DNA of 64,000 bases, taken from Rhodobacteraceae bacterium WFHF2C18 (GTDB lineage Bacteria; Pseudomonadota; Alphaproteobacteria; Rhodobacterales; Rhodobacteraceae). The notes beneath the pieces are model-generated. The model was not told where the DNA came from and made no database searches. It was given only the letters and a program-made list of their open reading frames with translations. Of this stretch, positions 49,131 to 64,000 are shown piece after piece. The DNA is taken from contig NHTQ01000003.1 of NCBI GenBank assembly GCA_002166865.1, positions 62,001 through 126,000 on the forward strand, in the 5' to 3' direction. The position numbers were made by a program, and so were the translations under genes. The stretch's first letter is position 1, and every line of letters begins with the position of its first letter.

Positions 49131-50453
49131 CTACACGCCGCGTGGCGAGGCCAGCAGCCAGAGCCCGAAGAAGGTATAGGCGACCATGAAGCCGGCCAAG
49201 GGGGCCTGCCCCAGCGTGGCCCGCCAGGAACTGCCGTGGCCGCGCACCGCCAGGGCATGGGCCACCAGGATGGCCAGGACATGGCCGCCCACCACGGCGC
49301 CGGCCTGGGTGAGCCAGATTGCCTGCACGGTGCCGGGCGTGTTCAGGAACCCGGTCGTGACGTGGAAGGTTCCCAGGCCCAGAAGATCGGCCCCGCTGTT
49401 CAGCGGATCGTTCAGCGCCTTGAGCACGTATTGCCCGTTGACCAGGGCGCTGGTGAGGTAATGCGCGATGTGATAGCCCAGCGCGATCGGCAGGATGGAG
49501 GGGGCGAAGACGCGAACCGACTGCAGGACCGTCCGGTTCGTACCGGCGATCCGTTCGCCCAGCCAGAGGCTGACCGCGAAGATCGCCACCAGCGCCACGT
49601 TGGCGACGAGAAGGCCCACGAGGTTCTCGGCAACCACCGCCGAGCGGCCGGGAAACTCCAGCGGGTTGATCCCGATCTGGACCAGCCACCAGAAGGTTTC
49701 GTTCACGCCGTCGAAGCTGCCGGCGCCCAGCATGAGCAGGATGAAGAGCGCCAGGCTTGCAGGCACCTTCCGGCCGCGCGCGTAGCTGCGCATAAGCACG
49801 GTCAGCGCCTCGCCCCGGACCATCCAGCGCGGACCGAAAAGCACCACCCCGGCCAGCATCGCCAGCCAGTATAGCCCTGCCACCACCGCCAGGCGATGCG
49901 GATCCGCCGGCGCGATATCGGCCATCAGGAATCCCGCGAACCCCATGAACAGAACGATCGCCGGCGCATGGCCCAGGGCGCGCGGCAGGCGCAGTGGCGG
50001 CCGCCCCCCGCTCATGCGGGCCAGGGCCGCCGCCGGGCCGGTAAAGGGATTGGTCCAGCGCCAGTGATTGCCAAGCAGCCCCTGCACCGTCACCAGCCCG
50101 ATCCACCAGACCGTCCAGACCGCCAGCGGCAGCGGATTGGTCAGCGGATCGTGACCGCCGGTCAGGCCGCGCCAGACCAGAAAGGCCAGCAGCGCCGCCG
50201 ACAGGCAGCTTGTCACGTGCCGCAGCGGGATTCCCGACCGGGGCAGCAGCGCGACCGGCCGAAACAGCGCCGCGGCCACCCCAGGGGGCAGGACCGCCAG
50301 AAGCCCCACCGTCAGGGCCACCGTCGCCACGCCGGCGGCGATGTAGATATCCGTTGGCAGCAGCAGCACGAAGCCCTGGTCGGCGGCATGTGCCAGCGCC
50401 TTGCCGGGCCCTAGGGTCAGCGCTGCCGCGACGGCGACACCCAAGCGCCGCAT
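49131..50453 (-). CDS. Polytopic membrane protein of unknown function
   Basis: A 440-residue protein with an N-terminal signal-like segment ending KALAHAADQG and about ten further hydrophobic helices. Motifs that stand out are NHWRWTNPFTGP, PRWMVRGEALTVLMRSYARG and SILPIALGYHIAHYLTSALVNGQYVLKALNDP. Similar bacterial membrane proteins have been labelled fenitrothion hydrolase-like (recalled, weak). I cannot give a function. GGAGGAAA precedes ATG 50453. It has no clear link to the neighbouring importer or azlCD. Confidence 0.78.
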   Translation of the reverse strand: MRRLGVAVAAALTLGPGKALAHAADQGFVLLLPTDIYIAAGVATVALTVGLLAVLPPGVAAALFRPVALLPRSGIPLRHVTSCLSAALLAFLVWRGLTGGHDPLTNPLPLAVWTVWWIGLVTVQGLLGNHWRWTNPFTGPAAALARMSGGRPPLRLPRALGHAPAIVLFMGFAGFLMADIAPADPHRLAVVAGLYWLAMLAGVVLFGPRWMVRGEALTVLMRSYARGRKVPASLALFILLMLGAGSFDGVNETFWWLVQIGINPLEFPGRSAVVAENLVGLLVANVALVAIFAVSLWLGERIAGTNRTVLQSVRVFAPSILPIALGYHIAHYLTSALVNGQYVLKALNDPLNSGADLLGLGTFHVTTGFLNTPGTVQAIWLTQAGAVVGGHVLAILVAHALAVRGHGSSWRATLGQAPLAGFMVAYTFFGLWLLASPRGV

Positions 50454-50545
50454 GTGGTTTCCTCCCTCGCAGAATTGGCGGGTCATCAAGCGGGGTCTCA
50501 CCGGTTCCTAAAGCGCCCGACCGCCGCCTGCCCTGCGGCAGAGCG

Positions 50546-50872
50546 TCACCCAAGCAGGTAGAGCGCCCCATACAGCGTGGCCGCGCCCAGGCAGATCGAC
50601 AAAACGACGTTGCGGGTGCCCACCCCGACACCGAGGGTCACCGCGGCGGCCATCATCCGCGGGGCATCCATTTGACCGCCCGTGGCCTCGGGCCAGACGA
50701 CAAGCGGCGCCACGAGCCCCGGCAGCACGGCGACGGCCGTGTAGCGCAGGTGGCGCAGCACCCAGGCCGGCATGGCGCGGTCCCCGATCAGGCCGGTGAA
50801 GACGAAACGCAGGCCGAAGGTGCCCACCCCCAGCAGACCGATCACGGTCCAGAGCGCGCCGGTTTCGATCAT
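50546..50872 (-). CDS. azlD: AzlD-type branched-chain amino acid export subunit
   Basis: A 108-residue protein with about four helices, typical of AzlD (GLLGVGTFGLRFVF, LRYTAVAVLPGLVAPL). With AzlC it forms an exporter of branched-chain amino acids or their analogues. Its start overlaps the azlC stop by four bases. Confidence 0.9.
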   Translation of the reverse strand: MIETGALWTVIGLLGVGTFGLRFVFTGLIGDRAMPAWVLRHLRYTAVAVLPGLVAPLVVWPEATGGQMDAPRMMAAAVTLGVGVGTRNVVLSICLGAATLYGALYLLG

Positions 50873-51594
50873 GCCCCCTCCCCGCGCGCGGCGCGGCGCG
50901 CCTCGATCACCTCGACGCGCGCACCGGTCATCATCGCCAGGACCGCGGCGAGCAGAAGCCCCAGATTGTACGGCAGGAAGGCGAAGACCAGCGCCGCCGT
51001 CACCGACACGACCGCCGCGGCCAGATGCGCCCGGGTATGCAGCATCGGCCCCACCATGGCCAGGAAGGTGATCGGCACCGCGAAATCCAGCGCCAGCCCG
51101 GCGGGCATCGCGCTGCCCACCAGCGCGCCGACCAGGGTAAAGGCATACCACAGGGGCACGATCGGCACGGCGACCGCCAGGAAATACCCGAGCTTTTGTC
51201 GCGCGGTCCAGTCGGGGCGGTTCTGGTACTTCAGGATCGAGCAGGCGTAGGTCTGATCCACCGTCAGGTAGGCCGCCAGCGCCCGCTGCCACAGCGGCGC
51301 GGCCCCCAGGTGCGGCGTGAGCGAGGCGGAATACATCGCCATGCGAAGGTTGACGGCCAGCGCCGAGACCAGCGCGATCACCGCCGGCGCGTCCTTGCTG
51401 AGCAGTTCCACCGCCGTGAACTGCGCCGCCCCCGCGATCACGAGGACCGAAAAGGCCATCGTTTCCACGAGGTTCAGCCCGGCCTCGGTGGCCACGACGC
51501 CGAACAGCAGGGCGAAGGGCACGATCACCAGCACGAAGGGCGCGCCATCGCGCACCCCCTGCCAGAAGATGGATTTCGTGGTTTCCGTCGTCAC
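50869..51594 (-). CDS. azlC: AzlC-type branched-chain amino acid exporter, large subunit
   Basis: A 241-residue membrane protein: PFALLFGVVATEAGLNLVETMAFSVLVIAGAAQFTAVELL and ALAVNLRMAMYSASLTPHLG are the AzlC hallmarks. About six helices. It is coupled to azlD (ATGA) and divergent from fdhD, 62 bases apart. Confidence 0.93.
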   Translation of the reverse strand: MTTETTKSIFWQGVRDGAPFVLVIVPFALLFGVVATEAGLNLVETMAFSVLVIAGAAQFTAVELLSKDAPAVIALVSALAVNLRMAMYSASLTPHLGAAPLWQRALAAYLTVDQTYACSILKYQNRPDWTARQKLGYFLAVAVPIVPLWYAFTLVGALVGSAMPAGLALDFAVPITFLAMVGPMLHTRAHLAAAVVSVTAALVFAFLPYNLGLLLAAVLAMMTGARVEVIEARRAARGEGA

Positions 51595-51656
51595 CGCGAG
51601 GCCCTAGATTGTCCGGTATCCGGCGTTGGCCTACGCCCTCGCGGAAGGAGATGCAA

Positions 51657-52541
51657 TTGGCAAGACCCGACGACCCAGACGGCTACGTCATCGCGCCCGA
51701 TCCCAAGGCGCCGCGCCTGACCCGGGCGGTGGAGGGCGTGGACCAGAACGGCGCGCCCGCGGCCATCCGCGTGGTCGAGGAACGGCCCCTGACGATCTTC
51801 CTCAACGGGCAGGAGATCGTGACCGCGATGACCATCGGGGATTATCCCGAATACCTGGCCCTCGGCTTTCTGCGCAACCAGGGCATGCTGCGGGCCGACG
51901 AGACGGTCGAGCGCGTCGATTTCGACGAGGATCTGGACACCGTGGTGGTGCGCACCGACGGGCAGACCACCTACGAGGAAAAACTGAAGAAGAAGACCCG
52001 GACCAGCGGCTGCGCCGTCGGGACCGTCTTCGGCGACATGATGGAGGGGCTGGAGGCGGTGGAACTGCCGGATCTGGCGGTGCGCGCCTCGCATCTCTAC
52101 GCGCTGGCCAGCACGATCAACCGGACGCCGTCCTTGTATCTCGAGGCGGGCGCGATCCACGGCACGGTGCTGTGCCAGGGGGACCGGCCGCTTGTCTACA
52201 TGGAGGACGTGGGCCGGCACAACGCCGTCGACAAGATCGCGGGCTGGATGTTCTCCGAAGGCGTCTCGCCGGGGGACAAGCTGCTTTACACCACCGGGCG
52301 GCTGACCTCGGAGATGGTGATCAAGACGGCGCTGATGGGCATTCCGGCACTGGCCTCGCGCTCGGGCTTCACCGCCTGGGGGGTGGAGATCGCCCGCGAG
52401 GTGGGCCTCACGCTGATCGGCCGGATGCGCGGCAAGCGGTTCGTCTGCCTCAGCGGCGCGGCGCGGCTGGTGCGCGATGCCGACCCCGAGAGCGTGCCCG
52501 AGGAAGACGCGCGGCACCGCCGCAAGGGAGCGCAGGCATGA
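51657..52541 (+). CDS. fdhD: FdhD/FdsC-type formate dehydrogenase accessory protein
   Basis: A 294-residue protein needed to deliver the sulfurated Mo cofactor to formate dehydrogenase. RPLTIFLNGQEIVTAMTIGDYPEYLALGFL and VYMEDVGRHNAVDKIAGW are the family signatures. At the position of the E. coli sulfur-transfer CxxC motif it has GCAVGT, with only one Cys, as in alphaproteobacterial FdsC-like forms (recalled). I set the start at TTG 51657 because AAGGAG lies six bases upstream; ATG 51651 would be too close to that site. It heads the fdhD-mobA-mobB-moeA operon and probably serves the enzyme at 31937-34717. Confidence 0.9.
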   Translation: MARPDDPDGYVIAPDPKAPRLTRAVEGVDQNGAPAAIRVVEERPLTIFLNGQEIVTAMTIGDYPEYLALGFLRNQGMLRADETVERVDFDEDLDTVVVRTDGQTTYEEKLKKKTRTSGCAVGTVFGDMMEGLEAVELPDLAVRASHLYALASTINRTPSLYLEAGAIHGTVLCQGDRPLVYMEDVGRHNAVDKIAGWMFSEGVSPGDKLLYTTGRLTSEMVIKTALMGIPALASRSGFTAWGVEIAREVGLTLIGRMRGKRFVCLSGAARLVRDADPESVPEEDARHRRKGAQA

Positions 52542-52560
52542 GCGCGGCGGACCCGGCGGC

Positions 52561-53160
52561 ATGAAGCAGCCCCTGGGCGTCATCCTTGCCGGCGGGCGGG
52601 CGACCCGCATGGGCGGCGGCGACAAGGGCCTGCTGCCGCTCGGGACAGGCACGATCCTCGACCAGGTGATCGACCGGCTGCGCCCGCAGGTGGCGGGGCT
52701 CGCCCTGAACGCCAACGGCGATCCGGCGCGCTTCGCGTTCTTGGGGGTGCCCGTCCTGCCCGACAGCGTGGAGGGCTTTGCCGGGCCGCTGGCCGGGGTG
52801 CTGGCGGGGCTTGATTGGGCGGCGGGCGAAGGGGCCGAGACCATCGTCACCGTGGCCGCCGATACGCCGTTCTTCCCCTGCGACCTTGTCCCGCGCCTGC
52901 AGCTGGCCGCCGAGGGCATGGCGCATCCGCTGGCCCTGGCCGCCACACCGGACGGACGCCAGCCCACCTTCGGCCTCTGGCCCGTGGTCCTGCGCGCGGA
53001 CCTGCGCGCCGCCCTTGCCGGCGGACTGCGCAAGGTGGTCCAATGGACCGACGCACACGGCGGGCGGCGCGCGCTTTTCGACGAGGGGGGCGATCCCTTC
53101 TTCAACGTCAACACGCCGCAGGATCTTGCGCGGGCACAGCACATGGCGGCGCGTTCATGA
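52561..53160 (+). CDS. mobA: Molybdenum cofactor guanylyltransferase
   Basis: A 199-residue enzyme that joins GMP from GTP to molybdopterin, giving MGD. The nucleotide site is VILAGGRATRMGGGDKGLLPLG; VTVAADTPFFPCDLV holds the metal-binding Asp, and FFNVNTPQDL closes the family pattern. It follows fdhD by 19 bases and overlaps mobB by four. bis-MGD is the cofactor of the formate dehydrogenase in this window. Confidence 0.95.
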   Translation: MKQPLGVILAGGRATRMGGGDKGLLPLGTGTILDQVIDRLRPQVAGLALNANGDPARFAFLGVPVLPDSVEGFAGPLAGVLAGLDWAAGEGAETIVTVAADTPFFPCDLVPRLQLAAEGMAHPLALAATPDGRQPTFGLWPVVLRADLRAALAGGLRKVVQWTDAHGGRRALFDEGGDPFFNVNTPQDLARAQHMAARS

Positions 53161-53648
53161 GGCTTTACGGCGTGGTCGGCTGGAAGAACGCGGGCAAGAC
53201 CGGGCTGATGGAACGGCTGGTGGCCGAGATTTCGGGCCGCGGGCTGCGCGTCTCCACCGTCAAGCACGCCCATCACCGCATCGACGTGGACCAGCCCGGG
53301 ACCGACAGCCACCGCCACCGGCAGGCCGGCGCGACCGAGGTGCTGCTGGCCTCCGCCACGCGGTTCGCCCTGATGCACGAGCTGCGCGACGAGGGCGAGC
53401 CGGCGCTGGAGACGCTTCTGGCGCGCCTCGCCCCGGTCGACCTGGTGCTCGTGGAAGGCTACAAGCGCGCGGCCCATCCCAAGGTCGAGGCGCATCGCGC
53501 CGAGACGGGCAAGGGCCTCATCGCGGAAAACGACGCCTCGGTGCGCGCGGTGGCCAGCGATGTCGCGCTGGATCTCGACCGGCCGGTTTTCGCCCTTGAC
53601 GACACGCGGGCAATCGCGGATTTCATCCTGTCCGAGGTCGGTCTGTGA
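53157..53648 (+). CDS. mobB: Molybdopterin-guanine dinucleotide biosynthesis adaptor (GTPase)
   Basis: A 163-residue P-loop protein: VVGWKNAGKTGLMERLV is the Walker A site, VSTVKHAHHRIDVDQPGTDSHRH the conserved block, LVLVEGYKRAAHPKVEAHR the Walker B region. It assists MobA. ATGA overlap with mobA and GTGA overlap with moeA show tight coupling. Confidence 0.95.
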   Translation: MRLYGVVGWKNAGKTGLMERLVAEISGRGLRVSTVKHAHHRIDVDQPGTDSHRHRQAGATEVLLASATRFALMHELRDEGEPALETLLARLAPVDLVLVEGYKRAAHPKVEAHRAETGKGLIAENDASVRAVASDVALDLDRPVFALDDTRAIADFILSEVGL

Positions 53649-55759
53649 GACCCTTCGACAGCTTCGCGATGATCGACTGGTCGGGTGGCAACGACACCGG
53701 CCCCCGTCCGCGGCGCGATGCCATCTGGATGGGCACGGTTCTGGGCGGCGTCGAGGGCCAGCCGCGCTACCTGCGCAACCGGCGATTGGCCGAGGTGGCC
53801 CTCGCCCACCTCATCGAAACCGAAAGCGCCGCGCGCCGGCGGCTTCTGATCGGTTTCGATTTCCCCTTCGGCTATCCGGCCGGCTTTGCTCGGGCCTTGA
53901 CCGGGCGCGCCGATCCCTTCGCCGTCTGGGACTGGCTGGAGGAACGGATCATCGACGGCCCCGGCTCCAACAACCGGTTCGAGGTCGCCGGCGCGATCAA
54001 CCGCCTGCTGGGCGGCGGGGCCGGGCCCTTCTGGGGCAATGCCCGGCCCAATCACGACGTGGCCGGCCTGCCGCGCAACAAGCGGGGGTATCGCACGCCC
54101 TTTCCCGAGCGGCGGCAGTGCGAGCGCCGTGCCAGGGGCAGCTTCACCTGCTGGCAACTCGCCGGCGCGGGGGCCGTCGGCTCGCAGGCGCTGACCGGCC
54201 TGCCGGTGCTGGCGCGCCTGCGCCGGCGTTTTCCCGAAGAGATCGCCGTCTGGCCATTCGAGCCCCTGGCGGCGCCGGTGGCCTTTGTCGAGATCTGGCC
54301 GGGCCTGATCGAGCGCGCGGTGAAACGCGCCGAGGCGCGGGGCGGTCTGCGCGATGCGCACCAGGTGCGGCTGATGGCCCGGGCGCTGGCGCGCTTGCCC
54401 GCGGCCGATCTGGGTGAGATGCTGGCGGTCGACACCGGCGAGGAGGGCTGGATCATGGGCCTGGGACATGAGGACAGACTGACCCAAGCGGCGGGGGAGC
54501 GGCTGCAGCCCCCGCCGCTGCGCGACGACTGCTTCGCACTGCCCGCCGGCGTCGACTGGACGCCGGTGGACGCGGCGCTGGCCCGCCTGCGCGACAGCCT
54601 GCACCCGGTGGTGGGACAAGAAACCGTGCCGCTGACGCAGGCACAGGGCCGGGTTCTGGCCGCCCCGGTCAGCGCGCAGCGCTCCAACCCGCCGCAGGCC
54701 AATTCGGCGGTCGACGGCTACGGCTTCGCCCATGCCGCGCTTGGGCCCGGCGACCAGGTTCTGCCGCTGGTCCCGGGCCGCGCAGCCGCGGGCGCCCCCT
54801 ACGACGGGGCGGTGCCGGCGGGTCACGCGGTGCGGGTTCTGACCGGCGCGGCCCTGCCCGAGGGCGTGGATACCGTAATCCTGGAAGAGGACGTGACCCT
54901 GGGCGCGGGTGAGATCGCGTTCCGCCCTGGCATCAAGCCGGGTGCGAACACGCGCGCGGCCGGCGAAGACGTGACCGCCGGCCAGAGCGTGCTGGACGCG
55001 GGCCGCCGCGTCACCGCCGCCGACCTCGCGCTTCTGGCCGCCGTCGGCGTTGACTCGCTGGCCGTGCATGACCCCCTGCGCATCGCCGTGATCTCCACTG
55101 GCGACGAACTGGTCGACCCGGGGGACACGGCCGGGCCCGGGCAGATCTTCGATGCCAACCGCCCGATGCTGCTGGGGCTGGTCCGCGATTTCGGCTTCCA
55201 GGCGCTGGACCTGGGCCGGGTGGTCGACGACCGCGAAGCCCTTCGCGCCGCGCTGGACCGCGGGGCGGAGGCGGCGCACTTGGTGCTGACCTCGGGCGGC
55301 GCGTCGGCGGGTGACGAGGACCATGTCTCGGCCCTGCTGAACGAGGCAGGGGCCATGGCCGAATGGCGGGTCGCGGTGAAACCCGGCCGGCCCCTTGCCC
55401 TTGGCCTTTGGCAGGGCACGCCGGTTATCGGGCTGCCGGGCAACCCGGTGGCCGCGATGGTCTGCACGCTCGTGTTCGCGCGCCCGGCGATGGGGCTGCT
55501 GGCGGGGGCGGGATGGCACGTTCCGCAGGGTTTCGACGTGCCCGCGAACTTCGCCAAGTCGAAGAAGCCGGGGCGCCGCGAATACCTGCGCGCCCGCATG
55601 CGCGACGGCCGGGCCGAGGTCTTCAAGTCCGAAGGATCCGGCAGGATCAGCGGACTGAGCTGGGCGGAGGGACTGGTGGAACTGCCCGATGGCGCGGCAG
55701 AGATCGCACCGGGCGATCCGGTGCGCTACATCCCCTTCTCTGCCTTCCATCACCCCTGA
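53645..55759 (+). CDS. moeA: MoeA-type molybdopterin molybdotransferase with a large N-terminal extra domain
   Basis: A 704-residue fusion starting at GTG 53645. Residues from about 303 onward are a complete MoeA: PLTQAQGRVLAAPV, NSAVDGYGFAH, GAALPEGVDTVILEED, AVISTGDELVDPGD, TSGGASAGDEDHV, GLPGNPVAAMVC. MoeA inserts molybdate into adenylylated molybdopterin. Residues 1-300 are an extra domain beginning FDSFAMIDWSGGNDTGP, with RRLLIGFDFPFGYPAGFARAL, GPFWGN and AFVEIWPGLIE; they recall DUF429-like nuclease-fold proteins, but I do not recognise a proven role. The fourth gene of the fdhD operon. Confidence 0.92.
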   Translation: MRPFDSFAMIDWSGGNDTGPRPRRDAIWMGTVLGGVEGQPRYLRNRRLAEVALAHLIETESAARRRLLIGFDFPFGYPAGFARALTGRADPFAVWDWLEERIIDGPGSNNRFEVAGAINRLLGGGAGPFWGNARPNHDVAGLPRNKRGYRTPFPERRQCERRARGSFTCWQLAGAGAVGSQALTGLPVLARLRRRFPEEIAVWPFEPLAAPVAFVEIWPGLIERAVKRAEARGGLRDAHQVRLMARALARLPAADLGEMLAVDTGEEGWIMGLGHEDRLTQAAGERLQPPPLRDDCFALPAGVDWTPVDAALARLRDSLHPVVGQETVPLTQAQGRVLAAPVSAQRSNPPQANSAVDGYGFAHAALGPGDQVLPLVPGRAAAGAPYDGAVPAGHAVRVLTGAALPEGVDTVILEEDVTLGAGEIAFRPGIKPGANTRAAGEDVTAGQSVLDAGRRVTAADLALLAAVGVDSLAVHDPLRIAVISTGDELVDPGDTAGPGQIFDANRPMLLGLVRDFGFQALDLGRVVDDREALRAALDRGAEAAHLVLTSGGASAGDEDHVSALLNEAGAMAEWRVAVKPGRPLALGLWQGTPVIGLPGNPVAAMVCTLVFARPAMGLLAGAGWHVPQGFDVPANFAKSKKPGRREYLRARMRDGRAEVFKSEGSGRISGLSWAEGLVELPDGAAEIAPGDPVRYIPFSAFHHP

Positions 55760-55794
55760 GCCCGCTTGCAGGGCCCATCTTCCCCGGGGACAGA

Positions 55795-57048
55795 ATGTCA
55801 GAGCCAAGCCTTCTCCTGCGCCGCCTTTTCCACCGCGCCGTGGCTGCAGCGGATCCGATGCGCTGCGTGCCGCCGCATTTGCCACCCCGGCCCGCGGGAC
55901 GGCTGGTGGTCGTGGGCGCCGGCAAGGCCAGCGCGCGCATGGCCGAGGCGGTCGAAGGCGTCTACGGCCCCTGCGACGGGCTGGTGATCACCCGCCATGG
56001 CCATGCCCGCCCCTGCCGGGGCGTGGAGGTCGTGGAGGCAGGCCACCCGGTGCCGGATGCGTCCGGCGTGACGGCAACGGCGCGGATGCTGGCGCTCTTG
56101 CGGGACCTCGGGCCGGAGGACCGCGTGCTCGCGCTGATGTCCGGCGGGGCCTCCGCGCTCCTGGTGCAGCCGGCGGACGGGATCAGCCTGGCGGAGAAAC
56201 GGGCGCTCACCGCCGCTTTGCTGGATTCCGGCGCGCCCATCAGCGAGATCAACACCCTGCGAAAGCACCTGAGCACCGTGAAGGGCGGCCAGCTGGCGGC
56301 CGCGGCCCATCCCGCGCGGATGCTGACGCTCATGATTTCGGATGTGCCGGGCGACGACCCGGGCGTCATCGGCTCCGGGCCCACGGTTGGCGAAGCAAGC
56401 ACCCCGGCGGACGCGCGCGCGATCCTGGATCGCCATGGCATTGCCGTGCCGGCCCCGGTGGCGAAGGTCTTGAGCGGCCCGTCACGGGTTGTCGCACCGG
56501 ACGACCCGCGCCTTGCGCATAGCGAGACGGTGATATGCGCCGCCCCGGCGATGTCGCTGGCGGCAGCCGCGGATTGCGCGCGCCGGTCGGGGCTGACCGT
56601 GGCCTGCCTGGGCGACGCGGTGGAAGGAGAGGCGCGCAGGCTCGCCAGGCAGCATGCCGCCCTGGCCCTGGAGGCGCAGGCCGCGATGACCCCGGACGCG
56701 GCCCCGCACCTGCTGTTGTCGGGCGGGGAACTGACGGTCACCCGCCGCGGCGCGGGCTGCGGCGGCCCGAACGCCGAATACGCGCTCGCCCTCGCCCTGG
56801 CCCTGAATGGCGCGCCGGGCATTCACGGCCTGGCCTGCGACACCGACGGGGTGGACGGCGCCGCCGAGGTCGCCGGCGCGGTCATCGGTCCGGCCACTCT
56901 GTCGCAGGCCGATACGATGGGCCTGGATGCCGCGACCGCCCTGGCCGACAACGATGCACACGCGTTCTTCGGGGCCCTCAACGATCAGGTCGTGACGGGC
57001 CCGACCTTGACCAACGTCAACGACTTCCGCGCCGTCCTCATCACGTAA
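55795..57048 (+). CDS. Glycerate 2-kinase (MOFRL type)
   Basis: A 417-residue kinase of the GckA/TtuD type that phosphorylates D-glycerate to 2-phosphoglycerate. The N-terminal domain has VVVGAGKASARMAEAVE, ALMSGGASALLVQP and NTLRKHLSTVKGGQLA; the C-terminal MOFRL domain has LLLSGGELTVTRRGAGCGGPNAEYAL and ACDTDGVDGAAEVAGAVI. ATG 55795 follows GGGGA. It is 35 bases behind moeA on the same strand and may be read through from that operon, though it belongs to serine-cycle or tartrate/glycolate metabolism. It is the last ordinary chromosomal gene before the mobile region. Confidence 0.93.
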   Translation: MSEPSLLLRRLFHRAVAAADPMRCVPPHLPPRPAGRLVVVGAGKASARMAEAVEGVYGPCDGLVITRHGHARPCRGVEVVEAGHPVPDASGVTATARMLALLRDLGPEDRVLALMSGGASALLVQPADGISLAEKRALTAALLDSGAPISEINTLRKHLSTVKGGQLAAAAHPARMLTLMISDVPGDDPGVIGSGPTVGEASTPADARAILDRHGIAVPAPVAKVLSGPSRVVAPDDPRLAHSETVICAAPAMSLAAAADCARRSGLTVACLGDAVEGEARRLARQHAALALEAQAAMTPDAAPHLLLSGGELTVTRRGAGCGGPNAEYALALALALNGAPGIHGLACDTDGVDGAAEVAGAVIGPATLSQADTMGLDAATALADNDAHAFFGALNDQVVTGPTLTNVNDFRAVLIT

Positions 57049-57233
57049 GCGCCGCTCCAGAACGAGCAAGGGGAACGACCCGACCAGAACCGCCTGCCCA
57101 AGACCGCCTTGGATAGCTAAGACAGGTGCGCGCCGCCGCGGTCTTCCATCGCAGTGAGCCAATGGGATGATGATCCTGCCCCGAATCGGTGGACACCCAT
57201 GACAGGCTGTCGAGCTAAAGGAAGGAGTGTCCG

Positions 57234-57465
57234 ATGGAGAAGAAGAAGCGCCAGTATTTTCCGGATGAGTTCAAGCGGCAGCCTGCGGAGCCCGTCGAGA
57301 CGAGCGGGGTGTCGGTCATGGATGTCGCGGCGGAACCGGGCGTTCACGAGACGCAGTTGCGTCGTTGGACACGACAGTTTGGCACGTCGGGGGCGGCCCT
57401 GCGCGGCGCCCCAATACGCAGGCGCAGGGCACGTCCCCGGCCGACCTGGCGGCGGAGAACGATGA
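57234..57465 (+). pseudogene. IS3 OrfA transposase remnant
   Basis: The helix-turn-helix protein of IS3 elements: FPDEFKRQPAEPVE, SVMDVAAEPGVHETQLRRWTRQFGT. The frame shifts near 57385-57393; the next frame continues GGPARRPNTQAQGTSPADLAAEN, and the sequence then stops matching at the internal deletion. Confidence 0.8.
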
Positions 57466-57477
57466 GCCATCGTCGCG

Positions 57478-57877
57478 CCGTCGATGGGGTGGAGCATGCG
57501 CGAACCGCTGGATGCCTCGATTGCCCTCGAAGCACGCGACATGGCCATCAGACGCCAGCGCCCGGCGCCCGGCGCCGGGGCTAATCCAGCACTCGGATCG
57601 CGGCATTCAATACCCGGCCGACGAGTATCGCCAAGCCCTTGCCGCCGCGAAGATAACGCCTTCCATGAGTCGGAAGGGCAATAGCCTCGACAACGCGCCC
57701 ATGGAGAGCTTCCTCCACCCGCTCAAGGTCCAACGCGTTCATCACCGCATTTACGCCACACGGGACGAAGCGCGCCGGGATCTCTTCGCCTACATCGAGG
57801 GATTCTACAATTCACGCCGCCTGCATTCCGCGATAGGCTACAGATCACCGGCCGACATGGAGATCATGCCGGCCTGA
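57478..57877 (+). pseudogene. IS3 OrfB integrase-core remnant
   Basis: Only the second half of the DDE integrase remains. It resumes with GWSMREPLDASIALEA, breaks in RQRPAPG, and continues in another frame with LIQHSDRGIQY (second Asp), MSRKGNSLDNAPMESFL (catalytic Glu) and YIEGFYNSRRLHSAIGY. The break is caused by a 7-base tandem duplication, CCGGCGC twice at 57562-57575. The first catalytic Asp is lost with the deletion. Confidence 0.85.
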
Positions 57878-57905
57878 TCCCGTCCACTTTTTCAGGGCAG
57901 AATCA

Positions 57906-58227
57906 CGGCGGCTGGGAAATCTTCTTGGCCATCGATGGGAGCGGCACGGCCAAGCAAATCGGCGACATGTCGAAGGGCACGAGGTTCCGGCTCTATCTGG
58001 CGCTGTGCCCGGCGGCATTTGAACAGATGGTAGCTCAAGGGGGTCTCCTGCCCGTCTTCTGCGACGACGTCTTCGAAACTTTCGACGAGTATCGCACCCG
58101 GGCGATTTGTTGGTGGATGGAGCGGATCGGGAAAAGCGGCCAGGCGGTCTATCTGACGCACCATGGCAACGTCGTGGAGCTCACGAGGGAGGTCTGCGAG
58201 GTCCAGCCGATGGTCCACGAAATCTAG
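57906..58227 (+). pseudogene. 3' remnant of a YhaN-like SMC-type ATPase gene
   Basis: The last ~100 residues of an AAA ATPase of the YhaN/chromosome-segregation type. MSKGTRFRLYLALC is the ABC-like signature, LLPVFCDDVFETFDEYR the Walker B segment, and QAVYLTHHGNVVELT the switch His. The frame is open from the last base of the IS3 element, with no plausible start or ribosome-binding site, so the rest of the gene was removed or displaced by the insertion. No upstream part is present left of the IS. Intact relatives are partners of YhaO-like nucleases. Confidence 0.75.
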
Positions 58228-58504
58228 CGGTAGAAGCTACCTGCTATCAAGCGAATGGGACCGAATTACGAAGCGATATGAAGGGCTTCGGCCCCTCTTG
58301 CTTCCACAGTGCTTCCACGGGCGGTGCAGACGCAAACGCCGCCCCGGAGGGCGGCCCTTAAGCGTTTGATAACGCGAAAAATTTTGGTTGCGGGAGCAGG
58401 ATTTGGTCTTTGGCGAACAACCCTGCTGGTTTCGAAACCATAGGAGCCAAGCTTGATCGGGACTTGGGGGCGGTCCTTCCCACGCACCTCTCAGGTGAAG
58501 GCGT
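58228..58504. other. Non-coding junction region in the mobile segment
   Basis: No gene is seen in 277 bases. It contains an 11-base-spaced direct repeat GCTTCCAC (58300 and 58311), a hairpin at 58338-58355 (GCCGCCC/GGGCGGC, CGGA loop), and the tRNA-like fragment at 58385-58405. The arrangement looks like an element border rather than a promoter region. Confidence 0.55.
58385..58405 (-). other. tRNA-fMet 3'-end fragment, candidate attachment site
   Basis: On the minus strand the 21 bases CAAATCCTGCTCCCGCAACCA match the T-loop-to-CCA end of alphaproteobacterial initiator tRNA-Met except for one base (recalled sequence). The rest of the tRNA is absent. Such 3'-end copies are left where integrative elements recombine into tRNA genes, so this may be an att half-site. 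Confidence 0.55.
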
Positions 58505-58996
58505 TCAGGCGTCAGCGCCGTCGTCGTCGGTGGAGGCGCTTTCGCCGTCGGGCCCGAACTTCTCTTTCAACCGTTCGAACTGCTCGCGCTCCTTCTGGCG
58601 CCGTTCCGCCTCGCGTTGCGCCTTGGCCTTCTCCGCCTCTTTAGCCCGCGCTGCATCGACCTGCTCAACGAGTTCATCCACGCCGTCGGGGCGCAGGGGA
58701 TGCGTGGCGATAAGCTTTCGCTGAGACGTGGAAGCAAGGCCTTCAAGTCCGGCGAAGATGTCACGCCGCAAGTCCTCATCCAATGCGCCCAGCGCGTTGG
58801 AAAGATTCGCCACAATCGCCTTGTCGCGGTCTCGCTCAAGCTTCTGCTGCTTACGGACATCTTTCTCAGTCATCCGGATGTAGCTGTCGAAGATCCGTTG
58901 CTTGGGATCCGGTTTCGCATCGGACGCCTCCGCCTGCCCAAGCTTGGTCATTTTGGGCGTGTCGGCCAGCTGTGCGACGATCGAGTTGGTGGCCAT
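58505..58996 (-). CDS. Hypothetical protein downstream of the relaxase gene
   Basis: A 163-residue, strongly charged protein with no membrane segment. Residues 45-75 (MTEKDVRKQQKLERDRDKAIVA) and 110-150 (ARAKEAEKAKAQREAERRQKEREQFERLKEKFG) look like helical coiled coils; the tail is acidic (STDDDGADA). AAAGGACA precedes ATG 58996. It lies 188 bases behind the relaxase gene on the same strand, so an accessory role in mobilisation or plasmid maintenance is possible. I do not recognise the family. Confidence 0.7.
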   Translation of the reverse strand: MATNSIVAQLADTPKMTKLGQAEASDAKPDPKQRIFDSYIRMTEKDVRKQQKLERDRDKAIVANLSNALGALDEDLRRDIFAGLEGLASTSQRKLIATHPLRPDGVDELVEQVDAARAKEAEKAKAQREAERRQKEREQFERLKEKFGPDGESASTDDDGADA

Positions 58997-59184
58997 ATCA
59001 ATGTCCTTTCAGGGTCTGGTTTCCATTCCTCATTGGCTTGGCGGGCAAGGTCCGCGTCAGCCGGGTGATCTGGAAATGGATGGTTCCGATTCTCCCGGAA
59101 ATTCGAAGGCGCAATTTCCGACGGAACCGCTCTTAAATGTCTGATTTTACGGCAAAGAAATTCCCAAACCAGGCCCTCCGGACA

Positions 59185-60477
59185 TCACAGACGGTCCCGA
59201 TCAGCGTTCCGCCCGTCGCCTCGCCCCTTGGAAGAGGGATCCAGGGACATGATTCGGGCCGTCAGCACGCGGCGCGATTGGGCGATGCGCTCGCGCAGGT
59301 GTGCCGGCAGTTGCGCCGCGATGTCGAATATCGTCTGATCAGCCTGCTTGATATCCGCGACTGCAGCTTCAACCTGTTTTGCCGCCCTTGCTTCGGCTTG
59401 CTTGCGCGCGCGCCTCTGAAAGCGTTTCGACGCAGCGAGGAATGCCCGCCGCGCCCGCGCAAATCCGGCTGAGCCGATGCGCAAGCGTCCCACCGGTTTC
59501 GATGGCTCGGATCCGCCGTCCGCTCGACCACGGTCGTCGGACACCGTTTGCCCTTTCTCGTCGATGGTACCCTCGGCGACGGCATCGGCGAACCCGATGA
59601 TGCCGTCGGCCTCGGCCTCGCGCTCTTCCAGCCCGCGCTTGCGCTTTTCCAGCCGCGCCGCCTTCTCGGCGAGGCGCTTTTCCTCATGACGGCGCCATTC
59701 GGCCGGCCGCACATGGCGGCGCTTCGCTGGCGGTTCGCGACCGTCCGACAGGGCATCCCGGATGGCCTGCTTGCGCCGTTCGCCCCGCACCAGCCCCAAC
59801 TCGGCGAACCATTCGCCGACGCTGTCCTGCGCTACCTCATAGTCGCGGATGACCTCGAACTTCGACGGCTGCAACATCTGCCGGGTCGCGATCGTCCTGG
59901 TCTCGCCGGTCGTCTTGTCGGTTCGGGTCATCTCGACCGTGGCCCGCGGCATGATGACGGCGTGGATATGATAGGCCTGCTCGTCGAGGTCGGCGCGGGC
60001 GTGGATCACGTCGTCGCCGAACTGATGCTTCAGCCATCCGACGGCCAGCCGTTCGAATGCTTCCACGCGCGGGTTGGCACCTTCACCGAGGAACTCCGAC
60101 AGGTCGTCGTCGAACCATTCCTTGTTGGCCGTCAGGATCACCTCGCGCATCGGGCCATGGCGCGTGGGGCGCCACGGGTCGTGGGGCCCTTCGGCCAGGC
60201 GGCGCCTGACGTCCTTCTTGCGCTTGCGGGCTTCCAGGCTTTCCAGTTCGGCGGCGAAGTTCCCGGCGCGGATCTTATCGATCTCGGCCAGCGCCTGCTT
60301 CGCCCAATCCTCGTCGCCGATCAGCCGCCGGTTACGGCCTCCGCGCTCACGATCGATGTGCCCGAGGTCCCCGCCCTTGCGCATCCGGTGCGCCTCGTAG
60401 CCGCCGAGATCCGAGGGGCTGAGACCCTCGAACCGCAGCACGACCGGGTAGCGTTTCTCGATGTTGGCGCCATCCAT
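59185..60477 (-). CDS. MobV/Pre-type plasmid relaxase
   Basis: A 430-residue mobilisation protein. The N-terminal part has AHRMRKGGDLGHIDRERGGRNRRLIG, the Mob_Pre opening; the metal-binding motif is DLDEQAYHIHAVIMPR (His170, His172, Glu166), the equivalent of HxDExxPHxH in MobV relaxases. A basic helical region (about 260-300, EEKRLAEKAARLEKRKRGLEE) and an Ala/Arg-rich C-terminal part follow. It should nick oriT and start transfer of a mobilisable plasmid or integrative element. GGAGGT in front of ATG 60477 is inside a hairpin. No type IV secretion genes are in the window, so it would depend on a helper. Confidence 0.85.
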   Translation of the reverse strand: MDGANIEKRYPVVLRFEGLSPSDLGGYEAHRMRKGGDLGHIDRERGGRNRRLIGDEDWAKQALAEIDKIRAGNFAAELESLEARKRKKDVRRRLAEGPHDPWRPTRHGPMREVILTANKEWFDDDLSEFLGEGANPRVEAFERLAVGWLKHQFGDDVIHARADLDEQAYHIHAVIMPRATVEMTRTDKTTGETRTIATRQMLQPSKFEVIRDYEVAQDSVGEWFAELGLVRGERRKQAIRDALSDGREPPAKRRHVRPAEWRRHEEKRLAEKAARLEKRKRGLEEREAEADGIIGFADAVAEGTIDEKGQTVSDDRGRADGGSEPSKPVGRLRIGSAGFARARRAFLAASKRFQRRARKQAEARAAKQVEAAVADIKQADQTIFDIAAQLPAHLRERIAQSRRVLTARIMSLDPSSKGRGDGRNADRDRL

Positions 60478-60479
60478 GA

Positions 60480-60506
60480 CCTGACCTCCGTGCAGTGGAG
60501 GTCAGG
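60480..60506 (-). promoter_or_regulatory. Hairpin that encloses the relaxase ribosome-binding site
   Basis: Ten-base perfect arms CCTGACCTCC/GGAGGTCAGG with the loop ACTGCAC on the transcribed strand, ending two bases before the start codon. The Shine-Dalgarno sequence GGAGGT is fully inside the 3' arm, so folding would block translation. The same inverted repeat could be a relaxase binding site (oriT arm). Confidence 0.65.
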
Positions 60507-60839
60507 AGATGGATGCTTTTGATCTTATCGTGAGTCGAAAGACTGGCGGCTTGCCAGCGGAGGGATCTCGGCTGAACGAGCGCGCGCATTCCTCACCTCG
60601 GCAGCCTGCCGCGTGAGGTTCCGATGTCAGCCCCGGAGAGCACCCATAGTGGTCAACCCAGCAGCCTCGCACACGCAGGTTTGGGCGGGAAGCAGACGTT
60701 CGCTGTAAATGCACGTTGACCTTCGCTCACTAATGACGCAATACCGCGCGGCAATCCATTACGTAGAAATCTCGCGCCTCGGCACTTACAGAAGTTCGAC
60801 GATTCATCAGGTCGCTTGACGATCGCCTTCGGCGGTCAG
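60507..60839. other. Non-coding gap between phosphatase and relaxase genes
   Basis: About 330 bases with no supported gene; a 70-codon minus-strand open frame (60502-60714) has no recognisable product and atypical composition. This is where promoter and oriT for the relaxase would be expected, but beyond the hairpin at its left edge I see no clear motif. Confidence 0.5.
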
Positions 60840-61370
60840 TTAGCGTTTCAACGATGCAAATTTCTCGAAAGGCAATTCAATTGGCTCGGCATGCGGAATT
60901 GCTGCGGACGAATTATCGCAGAGGAGGCGTATCACGCCAGAATGCGTGACTATTAGTGGCCTTGCGCCGACGATATGGGGTAGCGTATCCGCTACTCGCG
61001 CACGGAACCCCTCGGTGGTCTCGCCGCCCTCAGGATCTTGGCATCGGGCGCGCTCCGATTTCGGACGTCCTTCGAGAATACCCCAATGCCGTTCCGAGAG
61101 GCCCTTGAAGACCGTTACCGGCAACCCGAGGCACTCGCCGATGATCTCGGCAGACTCCTTGCAGCGGGAAAGTGGACTTGAGTAGATCGCGTTGATCCCT
61201 GCCAGCGATCTTACCGCCCTTCTCGCTTCCTGCCGCCCGCCAGCATCGAGTGCTATATCCTTCTGGCCAATGAGGATTTCGGCGCGATTCCACGCGGTCC
61301 GCCCATGACGTAGTAGGACAATCGTAGTGGGTGAACCTATCTCCATGGCTTGATGGTTGATCATGTTCAC
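60840..61370 (-). CDS. Histidine phosphatase, third gene of the HD-NTase operon
   Basis: A 176-residue phosphoglycerate-mutase-like phosphatase: IVLLRHGRTAWNRAEILIGQKDIALD has the phospho-acceptor His, YSSPLSRCKESAEII and GLSERHWGILEGRP follow, and the second catalytic His is in LIVTHSGVIRLL. All core residues are present, so it should be active; the pattern is close to alpha-ribazole phosphatase/2,3-BPG-type enzymes. GTG 61370 overlaps the nucleotidyltransferase stop (GTGA); ATG 61364 is an alternative. Its coupling to an NTase and an HD enzyme suggests it acts on a nucleotide or a phosphorylated product of them. Confidence 0.88.
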   Translation of the reverse strand: MNMINHQAMEIGSPTTIVLLRHGRTAWNRAEILIGQKDIALDAGGRQEARRAVRSLAGINAIYSSPLSRCKESAEIIGECLGLPVTVFKGLSERHWGILEGRPKSERARCQDPEGGETTEGFRARVADTLPHIVGARPLIVTHSGVIRLLCDNSSAAIPHAEPIELPFEKFASLKR

Positions 61371-62335
61371 AGGAGAAGCGCTTCCATGAGAGGGTCGCCG
61401 CGCGTATCCATATCAAGAAGAGTCAGAAGTTCAGCCTTGAATTCACGGGCCACTTCAGCGAATTGCGCGAATTCAGGTGTGGATAGTCCCTTAGCTCCGG
61501 GCAACTCCAGCTGTGATCGAACCGCCTCACGGTCCAGGGCCGACAGGAAGGTGGCGTAGAGAGCTCGGACCGGCATCATTGCGTCCTGCCCGTGGATCTG
61601 CGTAAGACGTTCCAAAGGCGGAAAAGCGAGCAGTTCGGCAAGCTTCTCCCTCTTGGCCGCCGCGTCACGGTCGACGGTCTGCCGAGCCGCCGCAATGCCT
61701 GCAACGTAGAGGAGCATGCGCGAGAGTCGCAGCTTCACGAGCCGGATTGCCCGCGGCTTGGTCGAATCAGCGGTCTTGTTCTCAAAGTCCACGCAGATCG
61801 TGCGCCAGTAGCGGATCACATCATTGAGGAAGAAGCGCACAATCTTATGGTCATTAAGATCTTCGGAGATGTAGCGCGCAATAAGGTCTAAGCGAAGACG
61901 GTTGAAACCATCCTCATTCGCCACCCATTCTCCTTCGAGAAGATAGAGCATTCGGCGAGTGATGTAGGTGTTCGTGTCGTCCTCCCCTCCGATGGTTGCC
62001 GTAAGCTGCGTCGTCCGAAGAGGACTCTCGAACACTCCGCCATGCGCGGGCATTTTTATTCCCTCTTCGACCAGGCGCTTGCGATACTCGTCCTGTGCCG
62101 CCTTGGCCGCCGCAAGATCACCGCTAAGCGTCAGAAAGAAGAGGTCGACGTCTGAGCCGCTCGTCGCTTCCCGACGCGCGACGCTGCCATTCACACCGAT
62201 TACGAGATCTGAGTTTCCGCCGCGTAGGTCCGCCGCGACCGAGCGAAGGGTTTCAAGAATGTCTTCGGATCTTTTGCGAGCGTCATCGAGTACGGCGGCC
62301 ACATCGGCGCCGTCTTTCAGCTTTGATATTTTCAT
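61367..62335 (-). CDS. Polymerase-beta-fold nucleotidyltransferase, second gene of the HD-NTase operon
   Basis: A 322-residue protein with the NTase signature G50-S51 followed by Asp62 and Asp64 in NGSVARREATSGSDVDLFF, the metal-binding GS...DxD motif. After it comes an all-helical region with MLYLLEGEWVANEDG, YWRTICVDFENK and a C-terminal ~100 residues with no known domain. It may transfer a nucleotide to a protein, small molecule or nucleic acid end, or make an oligonucleotide signal; sequence does not decide. It overlaps the HD gene by four bases and the phosphatase gene by four. A third catalytic acid is not obvious. Confidence 0.85.
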   Translation of the reverse strand: MKISKLKDGADVAAVLDDARKRSEDILETLRSVAADLRGGNSDLVIGVNGSVARREATSGSDVDLFFLTLSGDLAAAKAAQDEYRKRLVEEGIKMPAHGGVFESPLRTTQLTATIGGEDDTNTYITRRMLYLLEGEWVANEDGFNRLRLDLIARYISEDLNDHKIVRFFLNDVIRYWRTICVDFENKTADSTKPRAIRLVKLRLSRMLLYVAGIAAARQTVDRDAAAKREKLAELLAFPPLERLTQIHGQDAMMPVRALYATFLSALDREAVRSQLELPGAKGLSTPEFAQFAEVAREFKAELLTLLDMDTRGDPLMEALLL

Positions 62336-63468
62336 AGGGCTTCGACCAGTTCTTCAATCGTAACGCGTCGTGTGCGTTTGCTTTGTGTATAACGCTCGTC
62401 GAGTTGGTTAGGCTCTTTCAATTCTCTATCTGTCCGCACTGTGAAAGCCCGGTCCTTGGTCGTCACTTCTTCCTTCATCCAACTGCCAGGAAGACGATCT
62501 TTCAGGGATACTCGTCGGTCAGCTACAAGACCGAGCACCTCAAACAACTGGCGGTGACGCTTGCGAAGCGTTCCCTCACTACGTTCGAAATCCGTTGCAT
62601 CGAACTCATCGATATTAGTCTTCATGTAGGCCTGCGCAACGGCATCCATCAGGCGGCCACGTGCGCCGCCGATCAGAAGAGTGTAGACGTCATGCTTGAG
62701 CGTCCAGAACGCGTCGAACTCCGAAAGCGGAGCCTGGCCCGACTTAGCCCAAATTCGAACTGCCTTCAGCATGGCGCGCGGTGCGGCACGAGGCTTCATG
62801 AAGGCACGGCTTCGCGCGATGCCATCCAATGTATCAAAGTTGATAGAGCCTGCGAAGAGAAACGCGTCGGGTCCATCGTGATAGCCATCTATCATGGCGA
62901 GCACTTCTTCGGGATCGAGACCCGCCGCACGCAAGGAAAGGCAGACATCACGCCCATGGTGCGTCTCCCCGCGCACGATACGACGGGTCATCGAGTGGTG
63001 ATCGACATCGAATGCCTCCGCAAATACTGGCTCCAGTGTATGCGACAGCGGTCCGTGCCCGACATCATGCAGCAGCGCGGCAGCGAGGAGCAAGCGGCGG
63101 CGCTTCTCGCATAGCCCTGCCTCGTGCGCATATGTGTCGGCAAGGCGAGCCACGCCGAGAGTGTGCTCGAAGCGATTATGACGCCGCCTATGGGCGGAGC
63201 GTCCTGACCCGTGGCGGATGAAGTCTATGGCGCCGAGAAAGCCGATGCCCGCAAGCCGGCGCACAGGCGCAGTGGACATGAGTTCAAGGGCAAAAGGATC
63301 ATCAAAACTTATCGTCTCATCAGAACGGAACGTAGCTTCGGCGGCCGCAAGAGGCATGAGTTCGCACGCACCTGACGAAAGCATGTCGATCCTGCGCCCT
63401 CCCATCACATCCAGCATCCGAAATCCTTCTGAAACCATTGCCCGCTTGAAGCACGCGTCGCACCACAT
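62332..63468 (-). CDS. HD-domain phosphohydrolase, first gene of the operon
   Basis: A 378-residue HD-superfamily enzyme of the dGTPase/YdhJ type: RRHNRFEHTLGVARLADTYAHEAG (His102), LLLAAALLHDVGHGPLSHTLEP (His134-Asp135), then VDHHSMTRRIV and FDTLDGIARSR, which supplies the last metal-binding Asp. A cysteine pair CDAC sits at residues 3-6. It should remove phosphate or triphosphate from nucleotides. A sigma-70-like promoter ends about 20 bases before ATG 63468, leaving little leader; Met11 (63438) is a possible start. The operon's base composition is lower in G+C than the chromosome to the left. Confidence 0.87.
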   Translation of the reverse strand: MWCDACFKRAMVSEGFRMLDVMGGRRIDMLSSGACELMPLAAAEATFRSDETISFDDPFALELMSTAPVRRLAGIGFLGAIDFIRHGSGRSAHRRRHNRFEHTLGVARLADTYAHEAGLCEKRRRLLLAAALLHDVGHGPLSHTLEPVFAEAFDVDHHSMTRRIVRGETHHGRDVCLSLRAAGLDPEEVLAMIDGYHDGPDAFLFAGSINFDTLDGIARSRAFMKPRAAPRAMLKAVRIWAKSGQAPLSEFDAFWTLKHDVYTLLIGGARGRLMDAVAQAYMKTNIDEFDATDFERSEGTLRKRHRQLFEVLGLVADRRVSLKDRLPGSWMKEEVTTKDRAFTVRTDRELKEPNQLDERYTQSKRTRRVTIEELVEAL

Positions 63469-63487
63469 AGACTACACTGTTCGATCA

Positions 63488-63516
63488 GATATAAGTGCTT
63501 TTTCCAACCGTGTCCA
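63488..63516 (-). promoter_or_regulatory. Putative sigma-70 promoter of the HD-NTase-phosphatase operon
   Basis: On the minus strand TGGACA (5/6 to TTGACA), a 17-base A-rich spacer and TATATC (4/6 to TATAAT). It is the only promoter-like match in the short AT-rich stretch ahead of the HD gene. Confidence 0.55.
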
Positions 63517-63545
63517 AAGCTCCTGCTATCAAATTTTCGATGTGA

Positions 63546-63737
63546 TCACCTTCTGATGTGCCGCATCGCAGCATCCGCGAGTTCCATGAAGGTCCGCTCC
63601 GGGCCGGTAGCGCTTGATAACGCCGCTACGAATCGCGACTTCGCAGCGACGGCGTCGTGCAGACCGTAGACGGTGCAGTAGAACGCAGCAGACGGCAGCT
63701 CTGACGCCGGCTCGGGAAGGTCCGGGCCACGAAGCTT
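63546..63737 (-). pseudogene. 3' remnant of an unidentified gene
   Basis: A 63-codon open frame with natural-looking protein: it includes AAFYCTVYGLHDAVAAKSRF and ATGPERTFMELADAAMRHIRR and ends 77 bases before the HD gene. It begins after a TAG with no start codon, but the same frame stays open upstream of the TAG (VALAPRSMVMRR), so it may be the end of a larger gene with a nonsense mutation. I do not recognise the family. Confidence 0.35.
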
Positions 63738-64000
63738 CTACCGCCGCATCACCATCGACCGTGGTGCCAAGGCCACCGTGGCCCGTGGTGCCGACGCTGG
63801 CAACCCTGATCGCTTACCGCTCGCCACTTACTCACTAATCAGCTGGCACTCCGGCGCTTCGCGCCTGCGTTCCAGCTGTCGTTCGCCAGGGCGCTGCCCT
63901 GGACCCGCTTGGGGGAGCGTCGTTCCGCACTCCTCCCCCAAGACCCCCACCTGCTCGCGCGCCCCGCGCGGGCCAAGGGGCGTCGTTCGCCACTCCCCCT
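63738..64000. other. Non-coding end of the window with repeated TCGTTC(G)C blocks
   Basis: No supported gene in this stretch. Three related blocks occur: TGTCGTTCGCCA at 63877, GCGTCGTTCCGCACTCC at 63917 and GCGTCGTTCGCCACTCC at 63980. They are separated by C/G-rich strings such as CTCCCCCAAGACCCCCAC. The style is common in non-coding parts of alphaproteobacterial plasmids, supporting an accessory origin. Confidence 0.45.

Follow-up and report, generated by a model that had tools for sequence, protein, structure and literature searches.

The window analysed here is a stretch of 64,000 nucleotides from Rhodobacteraceae bacterium WFHF2C18 (contig NHTQ01000003.1, positions 62,001 to 126,000), and our subject is a cassette of three genes on its minus strand, which encode an HD-domain protein (62332..63468), a nucleotidyltransferase (NTase; 61367..62335; 322 aa) and a branch 1 histidine phosphatase (60840..61370). 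The HD and NTase genes are the conserved core of the cassette, and the phosphatase is an optional part. For the first and last genes the longest open reading frames (ORFs) comprise 378 aa and 176 aa, the latter with a GTG start. All three genes recur in the same order in Roseovarius sp. ZX-A-9 (L001), with identities of 84, 80 and 77% for the HD protein, NTase and phosphatase respectively, and this 2.8-kb block is the sole part of window positions 52001-64000 that aligns well with the Roseovarius sequence. The blastn alignment (∼81% DNA identity) consists of blocks 60806-63536 and 63557-63612, giving the shared cassette an extent of 60806..63612, without strand. A previous interpretation made from the letters alone, here called the sequence-only reading, had reported intact core motifs in each gene; these were recovered at the same residues and proved invariant among aligned relatives.

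That reading also had all genes overlapping by four bases. By comparison with Roseovarius and an inovirus-like contig (L027, described below), the likely starts are ATG 63417 for the HD gene (361 aa, preceded by AGAAGGA) and ATG 61346 for the phosphatase gene (168 aa), the latter aligning with the starts in both relatives and leaving a 20-nt gap after the NTase, as in Roseovarius. With these starts, a clear 4-base overlap is left at the HD/NTase junction only, where Roseovarius has it too; the NTase/phosphatase overlap depended on the GTG start, which the relatives do not support. A putative promoter, TGGACA-17-TATATC (63488..63516, minus strand; TGGACA at 63516-63511, 17 nt, TATATC at 63493-63488), is plausible only, with a 9/12 match: Roseovarius shows the same layout (TGGACA-17-TACATC), and a generic promoter scan found no minus-strand site. 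Upstream of the HD gene lies a 33-bp block (63565..63597, minus strand) that is common to Roseovarius and single-copy in the window.

The HD protein matches the HD family PF01966 (1.1e-12) and carries HDVGHGPLSHTLE. Across seven aligned HD sequences (alignment A2), H134-D135 is invariant, as are H102, H143, E146, H157/H158 and D212, and all of these are kept in the inovirus-like contig; the metal and catalytic residues of the class are among them. The motif HD[VI]GHxPxSHxxE, with its HD and HE dyads, is intact in 7/7 family members tested. When the family profile was compared with known structures, the nearest was 2o6i (1e-22), which we take to be EF1143, followed by an unnamed HD protein, 9mr6 (4e-14), and SAMHD1 (∼2e-12), while Dgt-type entries scored 1e-5 or worse. 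EF1143 and SAMHD1 hydrolyse deoxynucleoside triphosphates (dNTPs). Judged by these matches, the HD protein is probably a dNTP triphosphohydrolase of the SAMHD1/EF1143 type and a putative effector. One further HD match, in viral contig L029, covered residues 62-166 only (2e-10) and was taken as a general HD protein outside the family.

The NTase matches the PADLOC candidate family PDC-M70A (1.6e-49 over residues 14-307), as do 14/14 NTases of alignment A1, window included; its match to NTP_transf_2 (0.003) lies below the curated cut-off. The motif GSxxRxE...DxD is invariant in the 14 aligned sequences, specifically at G50-S51, D62 and D64. Compared with PDB sequences, the NTase by itself gave zero matches, and PHROGs contains no family for it. 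A structure model built from four sequences was of moderate confidence, with a mean predicted local distance difference test score (pLDDT) of 67.6 and a predicted template modelling score of 0.73. Over 248-256 residues it matched DrrA (Z 14.4) and both halves of GlnE (Z 14.3 and 13.6), followed by a DrrA fragment (Z 7.7) and remaining proteins at Z 7.1 or less. The model shows the GlnE/DrrA architecture, an NTase head with a C-terminal helical bundle, and the inovirus NTase gave a weak match to Pfam SidM_N (DrrA; 0.0035). In predicted fold class, the NTase resembles the protein adenylyltransferases GlnE and DrrA. Of the enzyme classes that the sequence-only reading had put forward for comparison, CD-NTase and MntA models did not recover it: no CBASS cyclase model was among its seven PADLOC matches at E values up to 1, and MntA is taken up below. 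One NTase relative (L022) did match cyclase models weakly (0.0016).

Several carriers of the genes are mobile elements. An 11.3-kb viral contig, called inovirus-like because of its Zot and Rep_trans genes, encodes HD protein, NTase and phosphatase in the window order, at 24, 32 and 29% identity to those of the window. In the 4,499-bp Escherichia coli plasmid pISHS7_5, HD, NTase and Rop are all the annotated genes in the PLSDB table, itself incomplete. The HD-NTase stretch of this plasmid occurs at near identity in 1/5,426 E. coli genomes. A tblastn search of plasmids at 1e-5 returned no HD match, and the HD protein of pISHS7_5 was matched by direct comparison. Viral contigs yielded zero relatives with the window NTase as single query, two matching loci with a 14-row NTase profile, and the inovirus NTase alone when that protein was itself the query. 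The cassette is mobile, and the co-localization of its genes is conserved in Roseovarius, the inovirus-like contig and, for the HD and NTase genes, the E. coli plasmid; the loss of co-localization that the sequence-only reading had named as a possible refutation was not seen.

In the window itself, the cassette is foreign, with a G+C content of 0.573 as against 0.689 for positions 1-57000. Adjoining it are an integrase-core (rve) remnant at 57365-57877, presumably of an IS3-type insertion sequence, and, at 59185-60477, a relaxase of MobV-like type, whose 48.9 bits fall short of the cut-off of 100. This foreign setting is real; for the attachment-like site proposed earlier no support was found, and ARAGORN detected zero tRNA genes in 50000-64000. 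A large serine recombinase is encoded ∼4 kb beyond the window end (L031:13693-15405, or 67692-69404 in window numbering) and is possibly the integrase of the segment.

NTase relatives are sparse among sampled genomes. Counting the genome of the window each time, they were found in 3/295 genomes of its family, 6/385 of its class and 4/398 of a phylum sample; a second class had them in 5/369 genomes and plasmids in 4/72,556 records. From its genus one further genome was sampled (G278), and this gave zero matches. Within the 385 class genomes, the HD family was present in five (E < 1e-170; next best 5.3e-18), and all five are among the six that have PDC-M70A. The sixth (G421) has zero HD match, and a 2H-type ORF adjoins its NTase. 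The chance figure for this co-occurrence, 8.7e-11, treats as independent genomes that come from three genera.

Two genera of carriers have the pair throughout. Genus g506, of the same class as the window, has HD and NTase in 29/29 genomes, and in the 28 that have both on one contig the genes share a strand, with HD upstream at a distance of 25 to 8083 bp (< 1 kb in 12 of them); in the g506 loci seen, other genes now intervene. Genus g326 has the pair in 3/3 genomes. When 23 NTases were placed in a tree, the 13 that have an HD partner grouped together, modestly supported (83/81); the tree program warns of long branches, and G227 is represented by the longer of its two NTase ORFs. HD partnership changes once on this tree, compared with a mean of 7.8 changes after shuffling.

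The phosphatase follows a different pattern. It matches His_Phos_1 (8.8e-34), with R21-H22-G23 and H143 invariant in alignments of five and of three sequences, and RHG, R69, E93 and H143 common to the window protein and its relatives; in PHROGs, both phosphatases fall in phrog_12933, of unknown function. The operons of G227, of the inspected g326 and g506 loci and of the E. coli plasmid lack it. Two g326 loci (L018 and L019) have a phosphatase on the opposite strand, at distances of 1.8 and 2.3 kb; G551 has one at ∼10 kb, and in G227 none was found. When aligned in like manner, the phosphatases close to the g326 pair share 38% identity with the window protein and that of the inovirus-like contig 29%; two g506 genomes encode phosphatases on other contigs, with 37-38% over the aligned part. 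An ancient trio is not evident from these values, and the gene may have been recruited twice. The earlier idea of a nucleotide-modification cycle with two built-in erasers is not supported, because the phosphatase is missing from several operons and the HD protein resembles a dNTPase, hence a probable effector and not an eraser.

Outside the HD-partnered group, the NTase keeps other company. In Mesorhizobium and Sinorhizobium loci (L005 and L004) it is followed by a PDC-M70B partner, a TIM-barrel protein by Pfam in Mesorhizobium, and the Sinorhizobium locus is near AbiEii. A Rhizobium locus (L006) has NTase followed by histidine phosphatase, with no HD match there. At three loci (L020, L022 and L065) the NTase is followed by 2H-type ORFs that are mutually related, of which only that in L022 has a Pfam match, a weak one (2_5_RNA_ligase2, 0.0092). 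At L061-L064, four loci from the second class, HD, phosphatase, 2H and TIM-barrel queries match no neighbour of the NTase. What fits best is a shared regulator with exchangeable partners that degrade nucleotides or nucleic acids. The sequence-only reading had suggested scoring how often homologues sit near defence genes, and three NTase relatives do, adjoining SIR2-HerA and BilD, AbiEii and a CBASS-type exonuclease.

Three of these loci can be described separately. A defence island on a Mesorhizobium plasmid (L005:422-9921) contains, in this order, SIR2-HerA, a PDC-M70 NTase with its TIM-barrel partner and a BilD-like gene. A prophage-like viral contig (L028:7332-8978) encodes a DEDDh exonuclease, which matches a CBASS exonuclease effector model (1e-37), with a PDC-M70A-like NTase directly after it, a possible defence pair. 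Locus L022:4265-7577 has, directly downstream of a gene that we take, from the start of its protein, to be pyrG-like, an NTase from the wider family together with its 2H-type ORF.

As the best of the readings considered, we propose that HD protein and NTase constitute a mobile conflict module, anti-phage or serving element stability, in which the NTase would restrain an HD dNTPase effector; we judge this proposal to stand evenly between right and wrong. In such a module, the HD effector would hydrolyse dNTPs and the NTase would be a negative regulator that transfers a nucleotide, with the HD protein as its most likely target, in the way that GlnE and DrrA act on protein targets. Alternatively, the acceptor might be another nucleotide and the product a ligand that inhibits, on the model of CloB in the Clover system. 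On infection, regulator or dNTP pool would be perturbed, the HD enzyme would be released and replication would stop; the optional phosphatase may clear or reset a phosphorylated signal. The proposal builds on what was observed, namely gene order, motifs, co-occurrence, mobile contexts and the fold class predicted for the NTase, and infers from it a dNTPase activity, its inhibition by the NTase, a role against phages and the substrate of the phosphatase. A more far-reaching version, which we offer tentatively and think rather unlikely, is a new class of immune modules in which a GlnE/DrrA-like adenylyltransferase would AMPylate interchangeable effectors and keep them inactive, and which would have acquired a core function in two genera. 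The effectors would be the HD dNTPase here and a DEDDh exonuclease, TIM-barrel protein or 2H phosphoesterase elsewhere, and the immune switch would be covalent AMPylation rather than a diffusible signal.

If the conflict module is real, regulation of a dNTP-destroying effector by an NTase would have evolved on two or more occasions, in Clover and in the window pair, with NTases that seem unrelated, and one NTase family would be a plug-in regulator for several unrelated effectors. Fixation of the pair in two genera would then allow the passage from immune module to housekeeping gene to be studied. The pair on the small E. coli plasmid is convenient for standard plaque and toxicity assays.

Several observations weigh against the conflict module. 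The strongest are the fixation of the pair in all genomes of two genera and the state of the locus in G227 (L021:5907-6874), where the NTase is split into two overlapping frames and the HD ORF is open. This split may be an assembly error, a real break or recoding; if it is genuine, the genome tolerates an HD gene that lacks its NTase. Conversely, G1026 has a stop in the HD stretch and an open NTase. In the three plus three loci inspected from the two fixed genera the neighbours are shared, which together with the fixation is unusual for a defence gene. PADLOC gave zero matches among six cassette neighbours in the genomes of the window and Roseovarius, and a tblastn search of 50,697 phage records gave zero matches. 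On the structural side, the HD model (mean pLDDT 43.4) was not used, and in the NTase model 149/322 residues have a pLDDT below 70, with much of 158-200 below 50. Foldseek ranked DrrA at E 1.6e-4 and GlnE at 1.6e-3 and 0.011, so that DrrA alone passes 0.001, and the Z-scores are to be read with the caveat of the aligner that helical models may reach Z ∼13 by common arrangement. The defence cargo suggested by the sequence-only reading is supported in so far as the NTase belongs to a PADLOC candidate family, and the fixed pair speaks against a purely defensive role.

Fixation in two genera leaves a housekeeping role open. HD protein and NTase would then be a regulatory pair for nucleotide-pool control, analogous to a split GlnE/GlnD, in dNTP or stress homeostasis, and would sometimes be mobilized. 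Its presence in every g506 and g326 genome, the upstream position of HD in the 28 one-contig g506 genomes and the GlnE-like predicted fold are what such a role would lead one to expect, and the four second-class loci with no matched partner also count in its favour. We nevertheless regard it as doubtful, since the family is patchy elsewhere (three of 295 family genomes, own included, and not G278) and its carriers include a segment with a relaxase gene, a small plasmid with Rop and the inovirus-like contig. End processing of RNA or oligonucleotides, with the NTase adding nucleotides and HD, 2H or other phosphoesterases trimming ends or 2′,3′-cyclic phosphates, would account for the related 2H-type ORFs after the NTase at three loci; the nearest predicted folds of the NTase are protein adenylyltransferases and the HD protein is of dNTPase type, and we consider this reading improbable.

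A further candidate is the Clover system itself. According to PMC12265719, Clover consists of CloA, a dGTPase activated by dTTP, and the NTase CloB, which makes the CloA inhibitor p3diT; when CloB activity is lost, toxicity follows. The CloA residues cited there run up to 452. For a reference locus, we opened six plasmid dGTPase loci, and one of them had an adjoining NTase-like ORF. This locus, on Phaeobacter piscinae plasmid pP14_b (L039:2917-5147), encodes an HD protein of dGTPase type followed by a 259-aa ORF that has GGxxRD...SDVD and is annotated as hypothetical. In its HD protein (TIGR01353 type), 10/11 CloA residues checked between 25 and 75 are at identical numbers, with T25 differing, later numbering shifted and many residues perhaps general to dGTPases. 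The pair is likely to be Clover.

The window pair and Clover share an HD protein of dNTPase type beside an NTase, the two activities being alike by class, and the HD and HE dyads have the same spacing in the window protein (HDVGHGPLSHTLE) and in the likely CloA (HDIGNPPFGHQGE; compare the accessible text of PMC12265719). However, the window HD protein is of the SAMHD1/EF1143 class and shorter (361-378 aa), scores 19.0 bits with the dGTP_triPase model (TIGR01353 type) against a cut-off of 152.35 and 327.5 for the likely CloA, and matches the latter across the HD core only (E 2e-4). The window NTase carries GSxxRxE...SDxD and has a predicted fold like that of GlnE and DrrA, whereas the ORF taken as CloB by inference carries GGxxRD...SDVD; the two show no similarity (BLASTP E 1.2; hhalign probability 2%). 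The cassette also adds an optional histidine phosphatase. Close kinship was not seen; the pair may by analogy work like Clover, and that it is a Clover system seems very improbable, so it was not filed as one. Least credible of all is an antibiotic-modifying adenylyltransferase with unrelated neighbours. In its favour, the weaker fold matches (Z 6 to 7) include AadA and ANT enzymes; against it, the GlnE/DrrA matches are twice as strong and the pairing with the HD gene is strict.

The sequence-only reading knew of no described system with this gene set. For the trio this holds, in that it is absent as a described system from the searchable papers, with an earlier mention of the HD-NTase pair possible in Nicastro 2023, which the accessible texts of PMC12265719 and PMC12839542 both cite; for a dNTPase with an NTase it does not, Clover having been described (PMC12265719, accessible text). 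Other systems can be set beside the conflict module. HalB of Hailong and MntA of HepT/MntA are NTases that restrain an effector. The window NTase scores 16 bits with the HalB model (cut-off 190) and 12.1 bits with the model of the type VII toxin-antitoxin protein MntA (cut-off 60), and no HEPN partner was found in the cassette. Compared with PDC-M70 (M70A and M70B), the NTase is a PDC-M70A member and the partner differs, being an HD protein with or without histidine phosphatase; neither of these two window proteins matches PDLC04779 of M70B. GlnE and DrrA/SidM share the predicted fold of the NTase over ∼250 residues, at 9-12% identity, and differ in that HD is here a separate gene. EF1143 and SAMHD1, finally, have in common with the window protein the HD domain, the HD and HE dyads and the profile match, whereas the window protein is shorter, matches them mainly over the HD core and is linked to an NTase in the sampled genomes.

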